Notes under the pieces: model-generated | Database searches by the model: none | Told to the model about the DNA's origin: nothing | The model's input: the letters and a program-made list of their open reading frames with translations, nothing else | Position numbers and translations under genes: made by a program | Assembly (NCBI GenBank): GCA_026692725.1 | Contig: JAPMUG010000001.1 | Location: 372,001-436,000, forward strand | Length of the DNA stretch: 64,000 bases | Origin: Ecytonucleospora hepatopenaei | Taxonomy: Eukaryota; Microsporidia; Enterocytozoonidae | Reading direction: 5' to 3' | Shown here: positions 28,274 to 64,000 of the stretch, in pieces | Position numbering within the stretch: position 1 is the stretch's first letter | Layout: every line of letters begins with the position of its first letter

Positions 28274-29293
28274 ATGAAAGACATTCATTTAGATTTTTCT
28301 ATAATGCTAGGCTTTATATCTGTAACTGGATGTTTATTAGCAATTTTGGTGTTTAACACTCATAGCAACAATTTTTTTCAATATTGTTATGTAATTTACA
28401 AAAACCAAAATATTTACTTAATCTTTACACTTCTCATTTGTGGAATAATTTGCTTTTTTGGTAAGATTTTTTCAGATTTGTGTTTTGGGAGACTGAATGA
28501 GTCGGATCAGGCAAATTATAATGAGATGGCTTCTGATTACCTTGGTAACACTGCAATGACAGCCATTTCTTTTCCTTATGTTTTACAGGTCAATAATTTA
28601 GCTGCTTTTATGGTTTATTATGCCGTAAGGGGAATGTCATGGGCGTATCATTTGAACAGTGAGACAAATGCATCGGGTGAAAGAACAGAAAATGCTGCGC
28701 AATATTCTTTTGGATGGGCAGTGGTTGTAGTTCTATTTATATTGTTTAAATTACGTACTTTATGCAATAAGTTTTCTCTAATGTTTATGTCATTTAATGG
28801 TCTTTTAGCTTTTGAGTATTTTATGACTTTGTTTTCTTTTGTCAAGCAAATGCTTTTGGATTATTTTAGTCACTGTTCACCTGCTGGAGAGTTTGCAATA
28901 AAAGCATTATTTTTGATTTCAAGAATCTTGGTTGCTGGATATTATGCAAATAACCTGTTAAAATTTAGAATGCCAATTACATACATAAAAATGATAGTTA
29001 TAGACTTGGCAGAGTTAAAGAAAACCAGCACAGTATTTTTTAAGTATCTAAAACTTTGCAAGGAATTAAATACTATTGAGGATGTGGAAGTTGAAAATCA
29101 AATGTGCGCAATCTGTACAGAAGATTTCAATAAAGGCAAAAAATTGGGGTGCGGCCATATTTTCCACACGGAGTGTTTAAAAATGTGGTGTGAAAGGGAA
29201 AGTACGTGTCCAATTTGTAGAAAACCTCTTTCTTTTACCAAAGACATAACAATTGAAACAGAAACTGAAGTAATTAGGGCAAGAGTTTTATAA
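28274..29293 (+). CDS. HRD1: HRD1/synoviolin-type RING E3 ubiquitin ligase of ER-associated degradation
   Basis: A 339-residue protein. Several transmembrane segments in the first 235 residues (about 10-30, 45-65, 92-115, 140-160, 170-190 and 205-225) are followed by a cytosolic RING-H2 finger. Its ligands are C278, C281, C293, H295, H298, C301, C312 and C315, in the sequence MCAICTEDF ... GCGHIFHTECLKMWCE ... CPICRKPL. The multi-spanning domain followed directly by this RING, with the phrase GHIFH..CL..W, is the Hrd1 layout. Hrd1 retrotranslocates and ubiquitinates misfolded ER proteins. It is shorter than yeast Hrd1 (551) because the C-terminal disordered tail is missing. gp78-type E3s are an alternative. 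Confidence 0.82.
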   Translation: MKDIHLDFSIMLGFISVTGCLLAILVFNTHSNNFFQYCYVIYKNQNIYLIFTLLICGIICFFGKIFSDLCFGRLNESDQANYNEMASDYLGNTAMTAISFPYVLQVNNLAAFMVYYAVRGMSWAYHLNSETNASGERTENAAQYSFGWAVVVVLFILFKLRTLCNKFSLMFMSFNGLLAFEYFMTLFSFVKQMLLDYFSHCSPAGEFAIKALFLISRILVAGYYANNLLKFRMPITYIKMIVIDLAELKKTSTVFFKYLKLCKELNTIEDVEVENQMCAICTEDFNKGKKLGCGHIFHTECLKMWCERESTCPICRKPLSFTKDITIETETEVIRARVL

Positions 29294-56640: not shown

Positions 56641-57877
56641 AGAATAGTATTTTTAAGATAGAGAGTAAATATGTATTGTATTATAGTATATAGGAAGAAC
56701 TATTTAATGTCACTGGTATAAATAATGATTTTTACAAAACAAATATATGAATATATATAATGCAGTAGTAGCTAACAATACTAACAAATTTATTATAGTA
56801 TTACTACTATTATAAAATATTTTGTAATACACAACTATATATTAACTACTAAAAACTTTTTATATGTTTTATAAATAAATAGTATAATAACTAAAATTAT
56901 TAGTGTATATTATATATTAGTAGTTTTAAGATATTTTATGTTAAAATAATTTGAAAAATAAAATATAATAGAAATAAAAAACACGTAGGTAAAAAGGAAA
57001 AGAAAAAAGATGAAATAAAAGTATATATAGAATGCAATGATATTGAAAATTGAATAGTTTTAGGTAGATGTATTTTTCAATTTTTTGTATTTGTGAGTAT
57101 ACCCTTTAGTAAAAAATATGGTTAATAAAATTAGTACTAGTAAATATTTTTTAACCCTAATAGTAAAATAGAATAAAAAAGAATATAAAAGAATAATAGT
57201 AGAAATATAATTTAAATGTATTAATATAAGTGTAAAACATAATATAAATGATAGTAAATAAATTATAAGTATATAAAATGCATTAGTTTAGTATATATTA
57301 CTAAATAAATTATTATTTTAAGAAATTTAAAAAAAAATAGAAGAAATATTCTAATAAAATATATAAGTAAAGGTATAAATGATAAGGTATATGTGTATTT
57401 AAATAGTATTAATAATTATAAAAAGATACTTTATTAACTATTTACATGTTTTTAATAAATAAATTATATAAATATATACATTTATTAGAAAATATTATAA
57501 TATTTGTAAAAAAATAGGAATATTTTAAAAGATAATAAAAATAAGAGAAAACAATGAGTGTATTAAATAAAAAAAATATAAAGTAAAAAAAATAAAAAAA
57601 CTAAAATAAATACTTAAGTATATTTACATATAAAAAATATAAAACTATTAACAAGTTTATAAACCTAATAATAAAATAAAAATAACAATAAAAAATCAAA
57701 AGAAATAAATACAAAAAGTTTAATTTAATTTATTAGTACTTAAAAAACATTATAATACTATTTTATGAATAGTAAAAGTAAAAACAAAGAAAAGAAAATA
57801 CGTGAAAACAAAAATTAGATTATGATTAGTAGCGCGAGAAAACTTGACGGAGTGTAACGAAGTTAAAGTTTTGGAGC
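56641..57877. other. Gene-free AT-rich stretch before the repeat array
   Basis: No gene seen. The last 60 bases become less AT-rich and hold an imperfect inverted repeat, AGCGCGAGAAAACTT at about 57831 and AAAGTTTTGGAGCGCT at about 57865. It could form a hairpin at the edge of the 30-bp repeat. Confidence 0.55.
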
Positions 57878-58267
57878 GCTATTGACTAGATATCTTACCT
57901 ACGGTAAGCTATTGACTAGATATCTTACCTACGGTAAGCTATTGACTAGATATCTTACCTACGGTAAGCTATTGACTAGATATCTTACCTACGGTAAGCT
58001 ATTGACTAGATATCTTACCTACGGTAAGCTATTGACTAGATATCTTACCTACGGTAAGCTATTGACTAGATATCTTACCTACGGTAAGCTATTGACTAGA
58101 TATCTTACCTACGGTAAGCTATTGACTAGATATCTTACCTACGGTAAGCTATTGACTAGATATCTTACCTACGGTAAGCTATTGACTAGATATCTTACCT
58201 ACGGTAAGCTATTGACTAGATATCTTACCTACGGTAAGCTATTGACTAGATATCTTACCTACGGTAA
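57878..58267. repeat. 13 exact copies of a 30-bp repeat
   Basis: The unit GCTATTGACTAGATATCTTACCTACGGTAA is repeated 13 times with no difference that I can see. Inside each unit TTACC-TAC-GGTAA can form a small hairpin, and AGATATCT is palindromic. The period is a multiple of three and one frame stays open through all copies (a 131-codon frame repeating TRYLTYGKLL), but there is no signal upstream, so it is not called as a gene. The array passes directly into the TTAG array at 58268. This is a subtelomeric-type satellite. Confidence 0.97.
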
Positions 58268-60012
58268 GTTTAGTTAGTTAGTTTAGTTAGTTTAGTTAGT
58301 TAGTTAGTTTAGTTTAGTTAGTTAGTTTAGTTTAGTTAGTTTAGTTTAGTTAGTTAGTTTAGTTTAGTTTAGTTAGTTTAGTTAGTTTAGTTAGTTTAGT
58401 TAGTTTAGTTAGTTAGTTAGTTAGTTAGTTTAGTTAGTTAGTTAGTTAGTTTAGTTAGTTAGTTAGTTAGTTTAGTTAGTTTAGTTAGTTAGTTAGTTTA
58501 GTTAGTTAGTTTAGTTAGTTTAGTTAGTTAGTTAGTTAGTTTAGTTAGTTAGTTTAGTTAGTTAGTTTAGTTAGTTTAGTTAGTTAGTTAGTTTAGTTAG
58601 TGTAGTTAGTTAGTTAGTTTAGGTTGTAGTTAGTTAGTTAGTTTTAGTGTTAGTTAGTGTTAGTGTTAGGTTGTAGTTAGTTAGTTTAGTTAGTTAGTTT
58701 AGTTTTAGTTGTTAGGTTAGTTGTGTTAGGTGTAGTTGTTTGTTTAGTTGTAGTTTAGTTAGTTGTTTAGTGTTGTTAGTGTTGTGTAGTTAGTTTGTTG
58801 GTTGTGGTTGGTTGTGTGTGTTAGGGTTGTTGGTTGTGTGTTGGTTGTGTGGTTGGGTGTGTGTTGGTGTGGTTGTTTGTGGTTGTGGTGGGTTGTGGTT
58901 GTGGTGGGTGGTTGGTGTGGTTGGTGTTGGTGGTGTGGTTGGTGTGGTTGTGGGTGGTGGTGTGGGTGTGGGTGGTTGGGTGGTGGGTGGTGGTGTGTGG
59001 GTGGTGTGGGTGGTGTGTGGGTGGGTGGTGTGGGTGTGGTGGGTGGGTGTGTGGGTGGGTGGGTGGGTGGTTGGGTGGTGTGGTGGTGTGGTGTGGGTGG
59101 GTGGTGGGTGTGGGTGGTGGGTGGTGGGTGGTGTGGGTGGTGGGTGGGTGGTGGTGGGTGGTGGGTGGGTGGTGGGTGGTGGGTGGGGTGGTGGGTGGTG
59201 GGTGTGGTGGTGGGTGGTGGTGGGTGGGGGTGGGTGGTGGGTGGGTGGTGTGGGTGGTGGGTGGGTGGGTGGTGGTGGGTGTGGTGGGTGGGTGGTGGTG
59301 GGTGGGGTGTGGGTGGGGTGTGGGTGGTGGGGTGGGTGGTGGTGGGGTGGTGGGTGTGGTGGGTGGTGGGTGGGTGGTGGTGGGTGGTGGGTGGTGGTGG
59401 GTGGTGGTGGTGGGGTGGGGTGGTGGGTGGGTGGGGTGTGGTGGGTGGGTGGTGGGTGGTGGGTGGTGGGTGGGGTGGGTGGTGGTGGGTGGGTGGTGGT
59501 GGGGTGGGTGGTGGGTGGGGTGGGGTGGTGGGGGTGGTGGTGGTGGGTGGGTGGGGTGGTGGGTGGTGGGTGGGTGGGGTGTGGTGGGTGGGGTGGGGTG
59601 GTGGGTGGGGTGGGTGGGTGGGTGGGGTGGTGGGTGGTGGGTGGGTGGTGGTGGGGTGGGTGGGTGGTGGGTGGTTGGGTGGGTGGTGGTGGGTGGTGTG
59701 GTGGGGTGTGGTGGTGTGGTGTGGGGGTGGGTGTGGTGTGGTGGTTGTGGGTGGTGGGTTGTTTAGTTGTTGGTGGGTTAGTTGTTGTTGTGGTGTTGGG
59801 TGGTTGGTTAGTTAGTGTTAGGTGGTTAGTTTAGTTAGTTAGTTTAGTTAGTTAGTTTAGTTAGTTTAGTTAGTTAGTTTAGTTTAGTTAGTGTTAGTAG
59901 TTAGTTTAGTTAGTTAGTTTAGTTAGTTAGTTAGTTAGTTTAGTTAGTTTAGTTAGTTAGTTAGTTTAGTTAGTTAGTTAGTTAGTTTAGTTAGTTTAGT
60001 TAGTTAGTTAGT

Positions 60013-60051
<39 letters not shown>

Positions 60052-60940
60052 AGTTAGTTTAGTTTAGTTTAGTTAGTTAGTTAGTTTAGTTAGTTAGTTT
60101 AGTTAGTTTAGTTAGTTAGTTAGTTTAGTTAGTTTAGTTAGTTAGTTAGTTAGTTAGTTTAGTTAGTTAGTTAGTTTAGTTTAGTTTAGTTAGTTAGTTT
60201 AGTTAGTTAGTTTAGTTAGTTAGTTTAGTTAGTTAGTTTAGTTTAGTTAGTTAGTTTAGTTAGTTAGTTAGTTAGTTAGTTTAGTTAGTTAGTTAGTTTA
60301 GTTAGTTAGTTTAGTTTAGTTAGTTTAGTTAGTTTAGTTAGTTAGTTTAGTTAGTTAGTTTAGTTAGTTAGTTAGTTAGTTTAGTTAGTTAGTTTAGTTA
60401 GTTTAGTTAGTTAGTTAGTTAGTTTAGTTTAGTTAGTTAGTTTAGTTAGTTAGTTTAGTTTAGTTAGTTTAGTTAGTTAGTTTAGTTAGTTAGTTAGTTT
60501 AGTTAGTTTAGTTAGTTAGTTTAGTTAGTTTAGTTAGTTTAGTTTAGTTAGTTTAGTTAGTTAGTTAGTTTAGTTAGTTAGTTTAGTTAGTTTAGTTAGT
60601 TAGTTAGTTAGTTAGTTTAGTTAGTTAGTTTAGTTAGTTAGTTTAGTTTAGTTTAGTTAGTTAGTTAGTTTAGTTAGTTAGTTTAGTTAGTTAGTTAGTT
60701 TAGTTAGTTAGTTAGTTTAGTTAGTTTAGTTAGTTAGTTAGTTAGTTTAGTTATTTAGTTAGTTTAGTTAGTTAGTTTAGTATAGTTAGTTAGTTTAGTT
60801 TAGTTAGTTAGTTAGTTAGTTTAGTTAGTTATAGTTTAGTTTAGTTAGTTTATAGTTTAGTTATAGTATTATTAAGTTAGTATAGTTTAGTTATAGTTAG
60901 TTAAAGTTATTTAGTATATTATAATTTAGTTATATAATTA
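58268..60940 (+). repeat. (TTAG/TTTAG)n telomere-like array, free of C
   Basis: About 2.67 kb of irregularly mixed TTAG and TTTAG units with the G-rich strand pointing rightward. From 58263 to 60940 no C occurs. Between about 58620 and 58800 the units drift to TGTTAGTG and GGTTG, lead into the G/T core, and return to TTAG units from about 59816. Near 60840-60930 the array frays into TATAGTTTAG and TATATTATAATTTAG. The polarity is that of a right chromosome end. The unit lacks the extra G residues of TTAGG or TTAGGG telomeres, so this is called telomere-like only. Confidence 0.9.
58801..59815 (+). repeat. G/T-only core (GGTGGGTGG words) inside the array
   Basis: About 1 kb made only of G and T with rare A, dominated by GGTGG, GGGTGG and GGTGTGG. 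Dense runs of three G at short spacing are suited to G-quadruplex formation. Three overlapping open frames of over 300 codons here (Gly/Trp/Val only) are artefacts of the absence of A. The transition on both sides is gradual, unlike an insertion with sharp ends. Confidence 0.9.
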
Positions 60941-60997
60941 CTTAACTAACTTAACTAATATAACTAATACTAAATTAACTAACTATACTAACTAACT

Positions 60998-61028
<31 letters not shown>

Positions 61029-61083
61029 ACTAACTAACTAAACTAACTAACTAAACTAACTAACTAACTAAACTAACTAAACT

Positions 61084-61114
<31 letters not shown>

Positions 61115-61467
61115 ACTAACTAAACTAACTAAACTAACTAAACTAAACTAACTAACTAAACTAACTAAACTAAACTAAACTAACTAAACTAACTAAACTA
61201 ACTAACTAAACTAACTAACTAACTAAACTAACTAACTAACTAACTAAACTAAACTAACTAAACTAACTAACTAAACTAACTAACTAACTAAACTAACTAA
61301 CTAAACTAAACTAACTAAACTAACTAACTAACTAACTAAACTAAACTAAACTAACTAACTAACTAAACTAAACTAACTAACTAAACTAACTAAACTAACT
61401 AAACTAACTAACTAAACTAACTAAACTAACTAACTAAACTAACTAAACTAACTAAACTAAACTAACT

Positions 61468-61502
<35 letters not shown>

Positions 61503-61509
61503 ACTAACT

Positions 61510-61544
<35 letters not shown>

Positions 61545-61701
61545 ACTAACTAAACTAACTAACTAACTAAACTAACTAACTAACTAACTAACTAAACTAA
61601 CTAACTAACTAACTAAACTAACTAAACTAACCTAACTAACTAACTAACTAACTAAACTAACTAACTAAACTAACTAAACTAAACTAACTAACTAACTAAC
61701 T

Positions 61702-61732
<31 letters not shown>

Positions 61733-61879
61733 ACTAACTAAACTAAACTAACTAACTAACTAAACTAACTTAACTAACTAAACTAACTAACTAAACTAAA
61801 CTAACTAAACTAAACTAAACTTAACTAACTAACTAACCTACCCTAACTAAACTAACTAAAACTAACTAACTAAACTAAA
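60941..61879 (-). repeat. (CTAA/CTAAA)n array, inverse of the left array, free of G
   Basis: About 0.94 kb of CTAA and CTAAA units. No G occurs from 60930 to 61879. It is the same repeat as 58268-60940 in reverse orientation, so the G-rich strands of both arrays point toward about 60935. CCTACCCTAACTAAAC at about 61836-61851 near the right edge contains one CCCTAA, closer to a canonical telomere unit. The polarity is that of a left chromosome end. Confidence 0.9.
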
Positions 61880-62186
61880 GCATGGTTTGATTAAATACAA
61901 CAACTATGTTTTATATTTAAAAAATGAAAATGTTATTATAAAAAATAGGACAAAAAGTTATTATAACCTGTTTTTTTAAATAGAACAAACTAGTGAAAAA
62001 ATAGAATGTGTTATGATTAGAGGGCAAACTATAAACAAAAAAATTATTTATGTTTATTTTACATAAATAAACATGTATATACCAAAAATATATGTAAACT
62101 AAAATATTAAAAACATTTTTAAATTCTAACAAATTCTCCTTATGCTTTAGATTATTTTAAATAAATTAATTTTATTTTTCCTTTTT
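61880..62186. other. AT-rich flank between array and transposon relic
   Basis: No gene supported. A 71-codon minus-strand frame (61917-62132) has no signal and is probably chance. Confidence 0.5.
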
Positions 62187-63652
62187 ATGAATCGTCGTAA
62201 AGATACAATCCTTATAAAATTAAAAAAGATAATTCAAAATCATAAAGAAACATTTTAAACAACAAAAATTTAAATGTTTTTTGCAAACATTGTAAATGTG
62301 TAATAAAATGCAATTCAAAATTTGCTGTTATGCAACATATAAAAAGTAAAAAACATGAAAAAAACATGTTTATTACACATTGCAACGATCAAGTTTCTTC
62401 TGAAGTAAATGAAAATTTATTTAAAAAATGAAATTGCTAAAATTTTATGTAAAGGAATGTTGAGGTCTGATACACATTTACATAACATAAAAAATGTAAG
62501 AATTCATAAGATTCATATTAAAATATTGTTTGTTAAAACTCATTTATTAAAACAAAAAGTAGGGTTAAAATAAACTAACAAAAAATACTGATTTTAAAGA
62601 AATGGTATTTCAATTAATTGGACAAAAGGTATCTGAAACTACCGTTAGAAAACAAATCAAAATTTTATATGAATTTGAACAAAAAAATTATTAAATTAAA
62701 TAAAAAATCAATCCTTTTACATTATTTTTGACAAAAGTCCTATTAAAAACATAAAATTTTGGAATGTTTTAATAGGATTTGTCAAAAATCCTGGAAAGGA
62801 GTATTTACTAGGATGTTTTAGTACCGATAAAACATCAGACAGTAAACTTTTAGAGGCAACTATTAATGAATTGTTTTTAAAATATGATTTAAAATATAAA
62901 AACCTGAAACTAACTAATCAGTGATGCAGTCAGGTACAACATTTTATTTTATGAAGAATTACGTAAAAAACAACCTCATGTAATGCACTTTACTTGCATC
63001 AGTCACCTTTTACACAATTGTGTGACGTTTTTATAAAAAAATTCAAAAAGGTAAATTTACTAATAAAAAAAATCAATACTCTCATAGGTTATAATAAAAG
63101 TCTCCATAGTCTGTTAAAACAACTTGGATCTTTTAAAAAACCTTGTGAAACACGATGAGGTACAACAATTGATTTTTTGATTTTTTTAAAAATAATTTTG
63201 ATCAAGTGTGCAAAATTTTAATTAATTTTAAAAACGATAGTTCTGAAACATATAAAAATTGTATGAATTTGATCAATAATAAAGCCGTTTATGATAATAT
63301 TTTATATATAGTCAAAAAATATGTTTTTTTTTGCAAAATTTATTGTTGAAAGTGAAAAAAGCAATTTTTCAAATTTAGATAGTATTGAAATGATTAAAAA
63401 AATCAGGTTTGATCATGACAAAATTAATTTAAGTAAAAATTTGGAAAAAAGAATTAGGAAACATTTTTTAAATAATTACTTTTATAATAAAAAAATGATA
63501 ACTGAAATTCAAACAAAGTTTTATTATTGCCTAGTTCAGGTTCTGAGGTAGAAAAATCATTTAACATGCTTAAAGATATGCTTAAAGACAAAAGAAATTT
63601 TAAAAAGGAAAATATCGAAATGTTTTTCTTCATTAAGTACAATAAATTTTGA
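62187..63652 (+). pseudogene. hAT-type transposase relic with BED-like zinc finger
   Basis: Fragments in several frames keep hAT transposase order. A BED-like finger comes first (FCKHCKCVIKCNSKFAVMQHIKSKKH, split here for length: CKHC then H and H). A catalytic-region piece is FVKNPGKEYLLGCFSTDKTS. The segment NSDAVRYNILFYEELRKKQPH then HFTCISHLLHNC corresponds to the SDA ... H-T-C-.-HALHN block. PCETR-GTTIDF follows. The C-terminal dimerisation piece is SGSEVEKSFNMLKDMLKD, RNFKKENIEMFFFIKY. At least six stops or shifts separate these, so the element is dead. No clear terminal inverted repeats were found. ATCCCCTTATAT at about 63738 and ATATAGGGGTTA at about 63829 are a weak inverted pair downstream. 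Confidence 0.72.
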
Positions 63653-64000
63653 AAAAAAACAATTTTTTAATAAAACATATTTTAATATAAAAAAACCGAT
63701 TTCCATTCTAAAAGCTATTAAAATGAAATTTTTTTAATCCCCTTATATACCAAACATATTTTTTTAACGTTAAATAAAATTTTATAAAAAATTTTATTTT
63801 GTTGGTCTTAAAATATATTATTTTTGAATATAGGGGTTAAAAAATTTGGCTTTTTATATTAAATTAAAATTTTTTATTCTTATTTACTATTTTTTGAAAC
63901 ATAAAAGATGTTTTTAAAAAAAATTATAAAACATGACATAATATTAACAAATAGAAATTTACATACTTATTTATTTTTAAATATTATTGTGTTAAAAAGT

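Follow-up and report, generated by a model that had tools for sequence, protein, structure and literature searches.

Features of the Locus

The window, that is, the whole stretch of 64,000 nucleotides analysed here, corresponds to bases 372001–436000 of C5, the largest contig (811,456 bp) of the Ecytonucleospora hepatopenaei assembly, which contains 3,094,744 bp in 13 contigs (C1 to C13). E. hepatopenaei, formerly Enterocytozoon hepatopenaei, is a microsporidian parasite of farmed shrimp. For two proteins encoded in the window, the nearest named relatives are Enterospora canceri and Nucleospora cyclopteri, and the best match reaches 100% for one protein and 93% for the other, for which no E. 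hepatopenaei protein is among the matches listed. C5 is ascribed to the species of C12 mainly because both contigs are in one assembly and have the satellite and the telomere in common.

Two arrays of short repeats face each other in the window (Table 1). A run free of C extends over 58263–60940 (2678 bp; the next longest C-free run in the window has 321 bp), and a run free of G over 60930–61879 (950 bp; next longest 216 bp); given the composition of the sequence outside the arrays, such runs have probabilities of about 10^-123 and 10^-49, respectively. That is to say, the head-to-head runs described in an earlier reading made from the sequence alone (the sequence-only reading) are exact in their coordinates and far beyond chance. 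The G-strands of both arrays run toward each other and meet at about 60,935, and the switch does lie, as had been noticed, in a frayed, AT-rich patch: at 60781–60990 the sequence is irregular, with 27% in perfect units against 99–100% in the stretches on either side. The left array had been read as TTAG/TTTAG from 58263 onwards, which holds for its inner and outer parts but not for 58801–59700, where TGG, TGGG and TG units contain a single A in 900 bases; its start also has to be moved, since 58263–58268 still belongs to the 30-bp satellite.

Table 1. Features around the head-to-head arrays (positions in the window)
Feature	Position	Strand	Remarks
TAS (telomere-associated sequence) behind the satellite	57800..57878	+	common to other ends
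30-bp satellite, capping the left chromosome end	57878..58268	+	13 full units
Inner TTAG/TTTAG array, G-strand toward the tip	58269..58600	+	100% in perfect units
TGG/TGGG block with mixed borders	58601..59830 (core 58801–59700)	+	artefact or second repeat type
Outer TTAG/TTTAG array of the left end	59831..60780	+	99% in perfect units
Frayed AT-rich junction, G-strand array to C-strand array	60781..60990	.	27% in perfect units
TTAG/TTTAG array of the right end (CTAA/CTAAA on +)	60991..61879	-	100%, then 94% in perfect units
Short stretch adjoining the right array	61880..62014	.	no other genome copy found, no satellite
Decayed hAT-like element	62015..63695	+	related copies on C1, C5, C10, C12, C13

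Chromosome Ends in the Assembly

Both tips of C5 bear arrays in telomere orientation, and its interior contains two head-to-head array pairs, at 219.4–222.5 kb and 430.3–433.9 kb, with switches at about 219.7 and 432.9 kb. When C5 is cut at both junctions, segments of 219.7, 213.2 and 378.5 kb are obtained, each with arrays at both ends; eight other contigs, of 120.8–367.4 kb, also have arrays at both ends. C8 is array-bearing at its left end only and C12 at its right end only. C2 and C13 each begin with a further head-to-head junction, whose start stubs (1.46 and 0.45 kb) have the wrong orientation for a contig tip. With the junction arms counted, there are 24 telomeric ends, including C1 left, which is counted as an end although 15 kb more sequence lies outside its array; if C8 and C12 are assumed to be parts of a single chromosome, this corresponds to 12 chromosomes. 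Moreover, the 9.5 kb examined of the 62.3 kb of C4 consists almost only of TG-rich low-complexity sequence and TTAG arrays, so that the assembly does contain odd telomere-derived contigs.

The TTAG/TTTAG arrays, which the sequence-only reading had called telomere-like, are the telomeres of E. hepatopenaei. They were found at 19 of the 23 readable contig tips, 17 of them in chromosome-end orientation and the other two being the inverted stubs of C2 and C13; no array was seen at both tips of C3, at C8 right or at C12 left. This count covers 23 of the 26 contig tips, leaving aside C1 left, C4 left and C4 right. An ordinary satellite, present at many internal sites and never at contig ends, is not what the search shows, the arrays being at contig ends. 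Over the 24 ends, array length ranges from 0.3 to 4.4 kb. In addition, the telomerase reverse transcriptase (TERT) domain PF12009 is matched at C12:73326–73706 (E = 3.0e-10, above the cut-off), and the ORF concerned matches E. hepatopenaei protein EHP00_886 with 100% identity over the 822 residues given.

Order of the Repeat Units

In most arrays TTTAG makes up about a quarter to a third of the units, and its placing is not independent of the preceding unit. Among ten arrays with fewer than 5% odd units, the probability of TTTAG is 0.37 after TTAG and 0.18 after TTTAG (chi-square 120, 3,461 unit pairs), and the rule has the same direction in all ten. Both window arrays obey it, with 0.43 and 0.20 in the outer left array and 0.41 and 0.23 in the right array. 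Such memory in unit order argues against independent miscalls of T-run length, which would show none; it suggests instead that the telomerase often adds one extra T, and does so less often right after having done so. In the 13 arrays tabulated, the share of odd units is 3–41% in the 75 units nearest the satellite and mostly 0–5% beyond them, and it climbs again farther out in C1 left, C5 left, C13 left, C9 right and C11 right. Identical proximal stretches are shared by the arrays of C9 left and C12 right (232 bp) and by that of C7 left with each of these two (174 bp).

The sequence-only reading knew of no described telomere with this unit, which stands for the mixture but not for TTAG itself. 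According to the excerpted text of the reports, Microsporidia sp. MB has TTAG telomeres with arrays of 1.3–7.1 kb on 13 chromosomes (PMC13174016), and Glugoides intestinalis likewise has TTAG telomeres, many SSU rRNA genes adjoining them (PMC12449221). E. hepatopenaei is thus like both in being a member of the Enterocytozoonida with the 4-mer TTAG at its chromosome ends, but, as far as these excerpts describe the two species, its arrays differ in also containing TTTAG in a first-order pattern. For Microsporidia sp. MB, LINEs and no subtelomere mosaic are reported at the ends in the same excerpt (PMC13174016), whereas E. hepatopenaei has a common 30-bp satellite and TAS behind its arrays; and unlike the rRNA genes described for G. 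intestinalis, the four SSU rRNA genes found in the E. hepatopenaei genome are all interior. The nearest parallel to the mixture in the excerpts is the composite TAGG/TTAGG telomere of Nosema muscidifuracis (PMC11592040), where units of 4 and 5 bp, one T apart, are also interspersed with the 4-bp unit in the majority, but the unit of E. hepatopenaei has one G fewer. In the openly licensed literature on E. hepatopenaei telomeres and microsporidian TTAG, no report of a TTAG/TTTAG mixture was found. TTAG telomeres are therefore already described in the Enterocytozoonida, and it is the TTAG/TTTAG mix that appears to be new.

Satellite and Array Borders

All but one of the 24 telomeric ends have the same 30-bp satellite behind the array, the exception being the right end in the window. 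The satellite that had been cited as setting the left flank apart is indeed present, but it is not peculiar to this flank. At C2 left, an unread stretch lies between array and satellite. A TAS motif follows behind the satellite at 21 of the 23 satellite-bearing ends; at C9 right and C11 right the sequence examined ends within the satellite, so that the TAS is not covered there. The left flank of the window matches all 21 other satellite ends compared (C1 left lying outside the set, and C9 right and C11 right being compared by satellite only), with 89–100% in the outer part; against C6 left, the match is 98.7% over 6.1 kb. The left window end is therefore a standard end, composed of TAS, 30-bp satellite and array.

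The array does not start at one fixed point of the satellite. Over 22 visible borders, eight phases of the 30-bp unit are used, by 7, 4, 3, 2, 2, 2, 1 and 1 ends, respectively. Manual reading of the eight border types, with C5a taken to have a one-base insertion, shows satellite and telomere repeat overlapping by 1–3 bases, on average 1.6 against 0.78 in simulation (P = 0.014), and the chance that all eight overlap by at least one base is 0.0025 by simulation. Such varied start phases would result if ends were repeatedly lost and then re-capped by telomerase inside the satellite.

The Right-Hand End

The array on the right follows the telomere grammar, has a degenerate inner border (94% against 100% in perfect units) and lacks the satellite. 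For the approximately 135 bp beside it no other copy was found in the genome, the matches of a 2121-base query beginning at base 136. The hAT relic named for this flank has related copies in the genome, one of which (C1:24338–25472) is 97% identical and lies about 4.4 kb inside the C1 satellite; its assignment to hAT comes from a match to Dimer_Tnp_hAT at 63506–63652 in one of the five frame pieces searched, whose score (E = 0.0083, 16.3 bits) is below the cut-off of 21.4. Probably the chromosome lost its satellite here and was re-capped by telomerase beside the hAT-like relic; a wrongly attached array is possible as well.

TG-Rich Blocks

Blocks of TG-rich units occur at 5 of the 24 ends (window left, C2 left, C2 right, C5b and C1 left, those of C2 left and C1 left being seen in part only) and also in C4. 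Three of the four head-to-head junctions (the window, C2 and C5 at 219.7 kb) carry such a block on one arm, and the C13 junction carries none. In the window, one mixed zone precedes the block over about 200 bp and another follows it over about 130 bp; in the window, C2 right and C5b alike, the A content declines to zero over 200–300 bp at the border facing the satellite, and its return at the border facing the tip is steeper.

When the order of units was compared among eight block cores, 5 of the 28 pairs had slightly longer stretches in common than the maximum of 20 Markov shuffles, where about one such pair would be expected: the window with C4_7.5k (40 vs. 33) and C4_38k (42 vs. 39), C2R with C5b (36 vs. 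34) and with C4_7.5k (35 vs. 34), and C2L with C1L_2.5k (34 vs. 32). The blocks may have some common origin, as far as unit order can tell, though no long common stretch was found among these 28 pairs.

As a first guess, the TG block is an artefact; it may also be a real second repeat type. It has been reported, in the excerpted text of a study on nanopore data from several organisms, that telomere arrays are miscalled as other simple repeats, the errors named for TTAGGG being TTAAAA, CTTCTT and CCCTGG (PMC9414165). Errors of this kind are a candidate cause of the block, with the proviso that the platform of the present assembly may not be nanopore, but the errors named in that text do not include TGG/TGGG in place of TTAG (PMC9414165).

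Comparison of the Two Arms

If one end had simply folded back on itself, the two arms should be mirror copies, and they are no more alike than unrelated arrays. The window arms score 560 against each other, which is rank 12 of 22 when the left arm is compared with real arrays of other ends; the C13 pair takes rank 15 of 27 and the C2 pair rank 21 of 26 (22, 27 and 26 arrays being used for the window, C13 and C2, with shorter arrays and the C5a/C5b pair left out). For the left arm, a fold-back simulated over 1179 bases with 3% error gives a score of 1056, the observed score being 578. The objection raised earlier to a simple fold-back, which had appealed to the different flanks, is thus upheld by the arrays, and, the arms not being mirror copies, the join is one between two different ends.

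The shuffle tests have to be read with care. In the nucleotide test the observed score exceeds the best of 20 shuffles for the window (578 vs. 468), C13 (328 vs. 290) and C5a/C5b (121 vs. 95), and only slightly for C2 (251 vs. 244), and two control pairs likewise lie above all 20. Shuffling scatters the frayed letters and so scores too low, and it is for this reason that the junction pairs exceed the shuffles and that the comparison with real arrays, in which they are ordinary, was used. In a test coded by units, the window pair scores 16 against a null mean of 20.4; this test missed its positive control, C9L/C12R (13, null maximum 14). It places two pairs above a null maximum of 23, namely WinG_dist/C2R_dist (28) and C2L_G/WinG_prox (25).

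Fray at the Junctions

In the last 50 bp, the share of perfect repeat is 0–34% on seven of the eight junction arms (0% on both window arms, the cut between arms having been placed by hand inside the AT-rich patch) and 78% on the eighth, at C5:219.7 kb. At ordinary array tips it is 92–100% in 15 of 17. Fray of this kind would be expected if the consensus combines molecules that end differently, but not at a single fixed fusion point.

The two remaining ordinary tips, C2 right (68%) and C5 left (52%), are also frayed; fray is not unique to junctions, a point against an assembly join. Adapter remnants in the frays were also considered and not accepted: eight tests (four frays, two strands) gave P values of 0.004 to 0.315, the two lowest (0.004 and 0.028) both in C13, and the reverse strand of the adapter resembles the telomere repeat itself.

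Origin of the Join

Very probably, the tips of two complete and separate chromosome ends have been brought together by the assembly or in the library. Each chromosome end would be capped with TTAG/TTTAG repeats made by telomerase, and the assembly, or chimeric library molecules, would then join two ends at their tips. No sequence other than the arrays is common to all ends, and therefore a read passing from G-strand into C-strand can bridge two chromosomes. Since the arms are not mirror copies, the join requires either a bridging molecule whose parts have different origins or a fold-back combined with an overlap through repeats; the blurred patch would be the consensus of molecules with differing tips, the right end would have passed through terminal loss and re-capping, and cells would hold no joined molecule. 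This reading is supported by the division of C5 into three segments with arrays at both ends, by the inverted stubs of C2 and C13, and by the frayed junction arms. Between the two explanations offered in the sequence-only reading, a real fusion and an assembly join, it is the assembly join that fits better, fusion being disfavoured by the C5 segments, the stubs and the fray.

A fusion in vivo of two chromosomes (three, if all of C5 is taken), in which the arrays would persist as interstitial telomere sequence, is improbable. It would agree with arms that come from two different arrays, both with telomere grammar, and with a right end without the satellite of the other 23, where something must have happened. 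However, the sharp junction sought as its mark was not found, the arms meeting in a frayed blur of 210 bp with no crisp point; both flanking arrays are full and clean and not eroded; a further two junctions take the form of stubs where contigs begin; and the two C5 junctions would link three complete chromosomes. Three centromeres would make a chromosome unstable. A related idea, that at least part of the population has real tip-to-tip chromosomes with intact head-to-head tracts, the TG blocks being a second repeat laid there, is distinctly improbable.

The fold-back of one end in hairpin or strand-switch reads, with the far flank attached by repeat overlap, is highly unlikely. A G-strand array followed by a C-strand array with a blurred middle is what it would give, the starts of C2 and C13 resemble ends turning back, and the window, C13 and C5a/C5b pairs lie clearly, and C2 slightly, above all 20 shuffles; but the shuffles score too low, the window, C13 and C2 pairs are ordinary against real arrays, and the simulated fold-back scores far above the observed arms. 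That the right array is interstitial or wrongly attached beside a standard left end can hardly be credited: it is short (0.9 kb) and the only one of 24 without satellite, but it has telomere grammar (0.41/0.23), its inner border is degenerate, and it is needed to give the 379-kb segment a left telomere.

Significance

If the tip-to-tip join is an artefact of assembly or library, the largest contig needs to be split near 219.7 and 432.9 kb, and the karyotype would come to about 12 chromosomes. In their own right, the ends make a useful system, namely a mixed telomere of 4-bp and 5-bp units with memory between successive units. In addition, the eight start positions in the 30-bp satellite, with their 1–3 shared bases, read as a record of repeated loss and re-capping of chromosome ends.

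Ribosomal RNA and protein-coding genes

All four SSU rRNA genes found sit in the interior of contigs, in contrast to Encephalitozoon, whose rRNA genes lie at chromosome ends according to PMC12449221. The top database match of the HRD1-like RING protein in the window reaches only 93%, which contrasts with the telomerase reverse transcriptase (TERT) of the same genome, 100% identical to a public E. hepatopenaei protein.

Positions of the features discussed
Feature	Sequence	Position
SSU rRNA gene	C5	352543
SSU rRNA gene	C6	283196
SSU rRNA gene	C7	169046
SSU rRNA gene	C8	65928
HRD1-like RING protein	window	28274-29293
TG block	window	58601-59830
TG block	C2	118,600-119,690
TG block	C5	220,430-221,550
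Variant of C4 motif	C5	~220,430-220,500
Parts examined (of 62,331 bp)	C4	7501-10000, 38001-42500, 52501-55000
Satellite/array border (example)	window	58268

Structure of the chromosome ends

The edges of the three tabulated TG blocks (TGG/TGGG stretches inside telomere arrays) are unequal, being slow on the satellite side and sharper on the tip side. In the parts examined, contig C4 consists almost entirely of TG-rich low-complexity sequence and TTAG arrays; it is either telomere-derived or artefactual. A short recurring motif precedes two of these arrays, and is also present, reversed and varied, in C5.

Among 22 satellite/array borders, eight different phases of the 30-bp satellite serve as joining points, where 1-3 bases are common to satellite and array. 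Four contig ends (left of C7, C9 and C11, right of C12) are alike: in each the satellite comprises 15 units, the border falls at one common phase, and the array begins in nearly identical fashion; moreover, C7L, C9L and C12R have identical stretches of 174-232 bases in common. Such likeness suggests that ends have recently been copied from one another.
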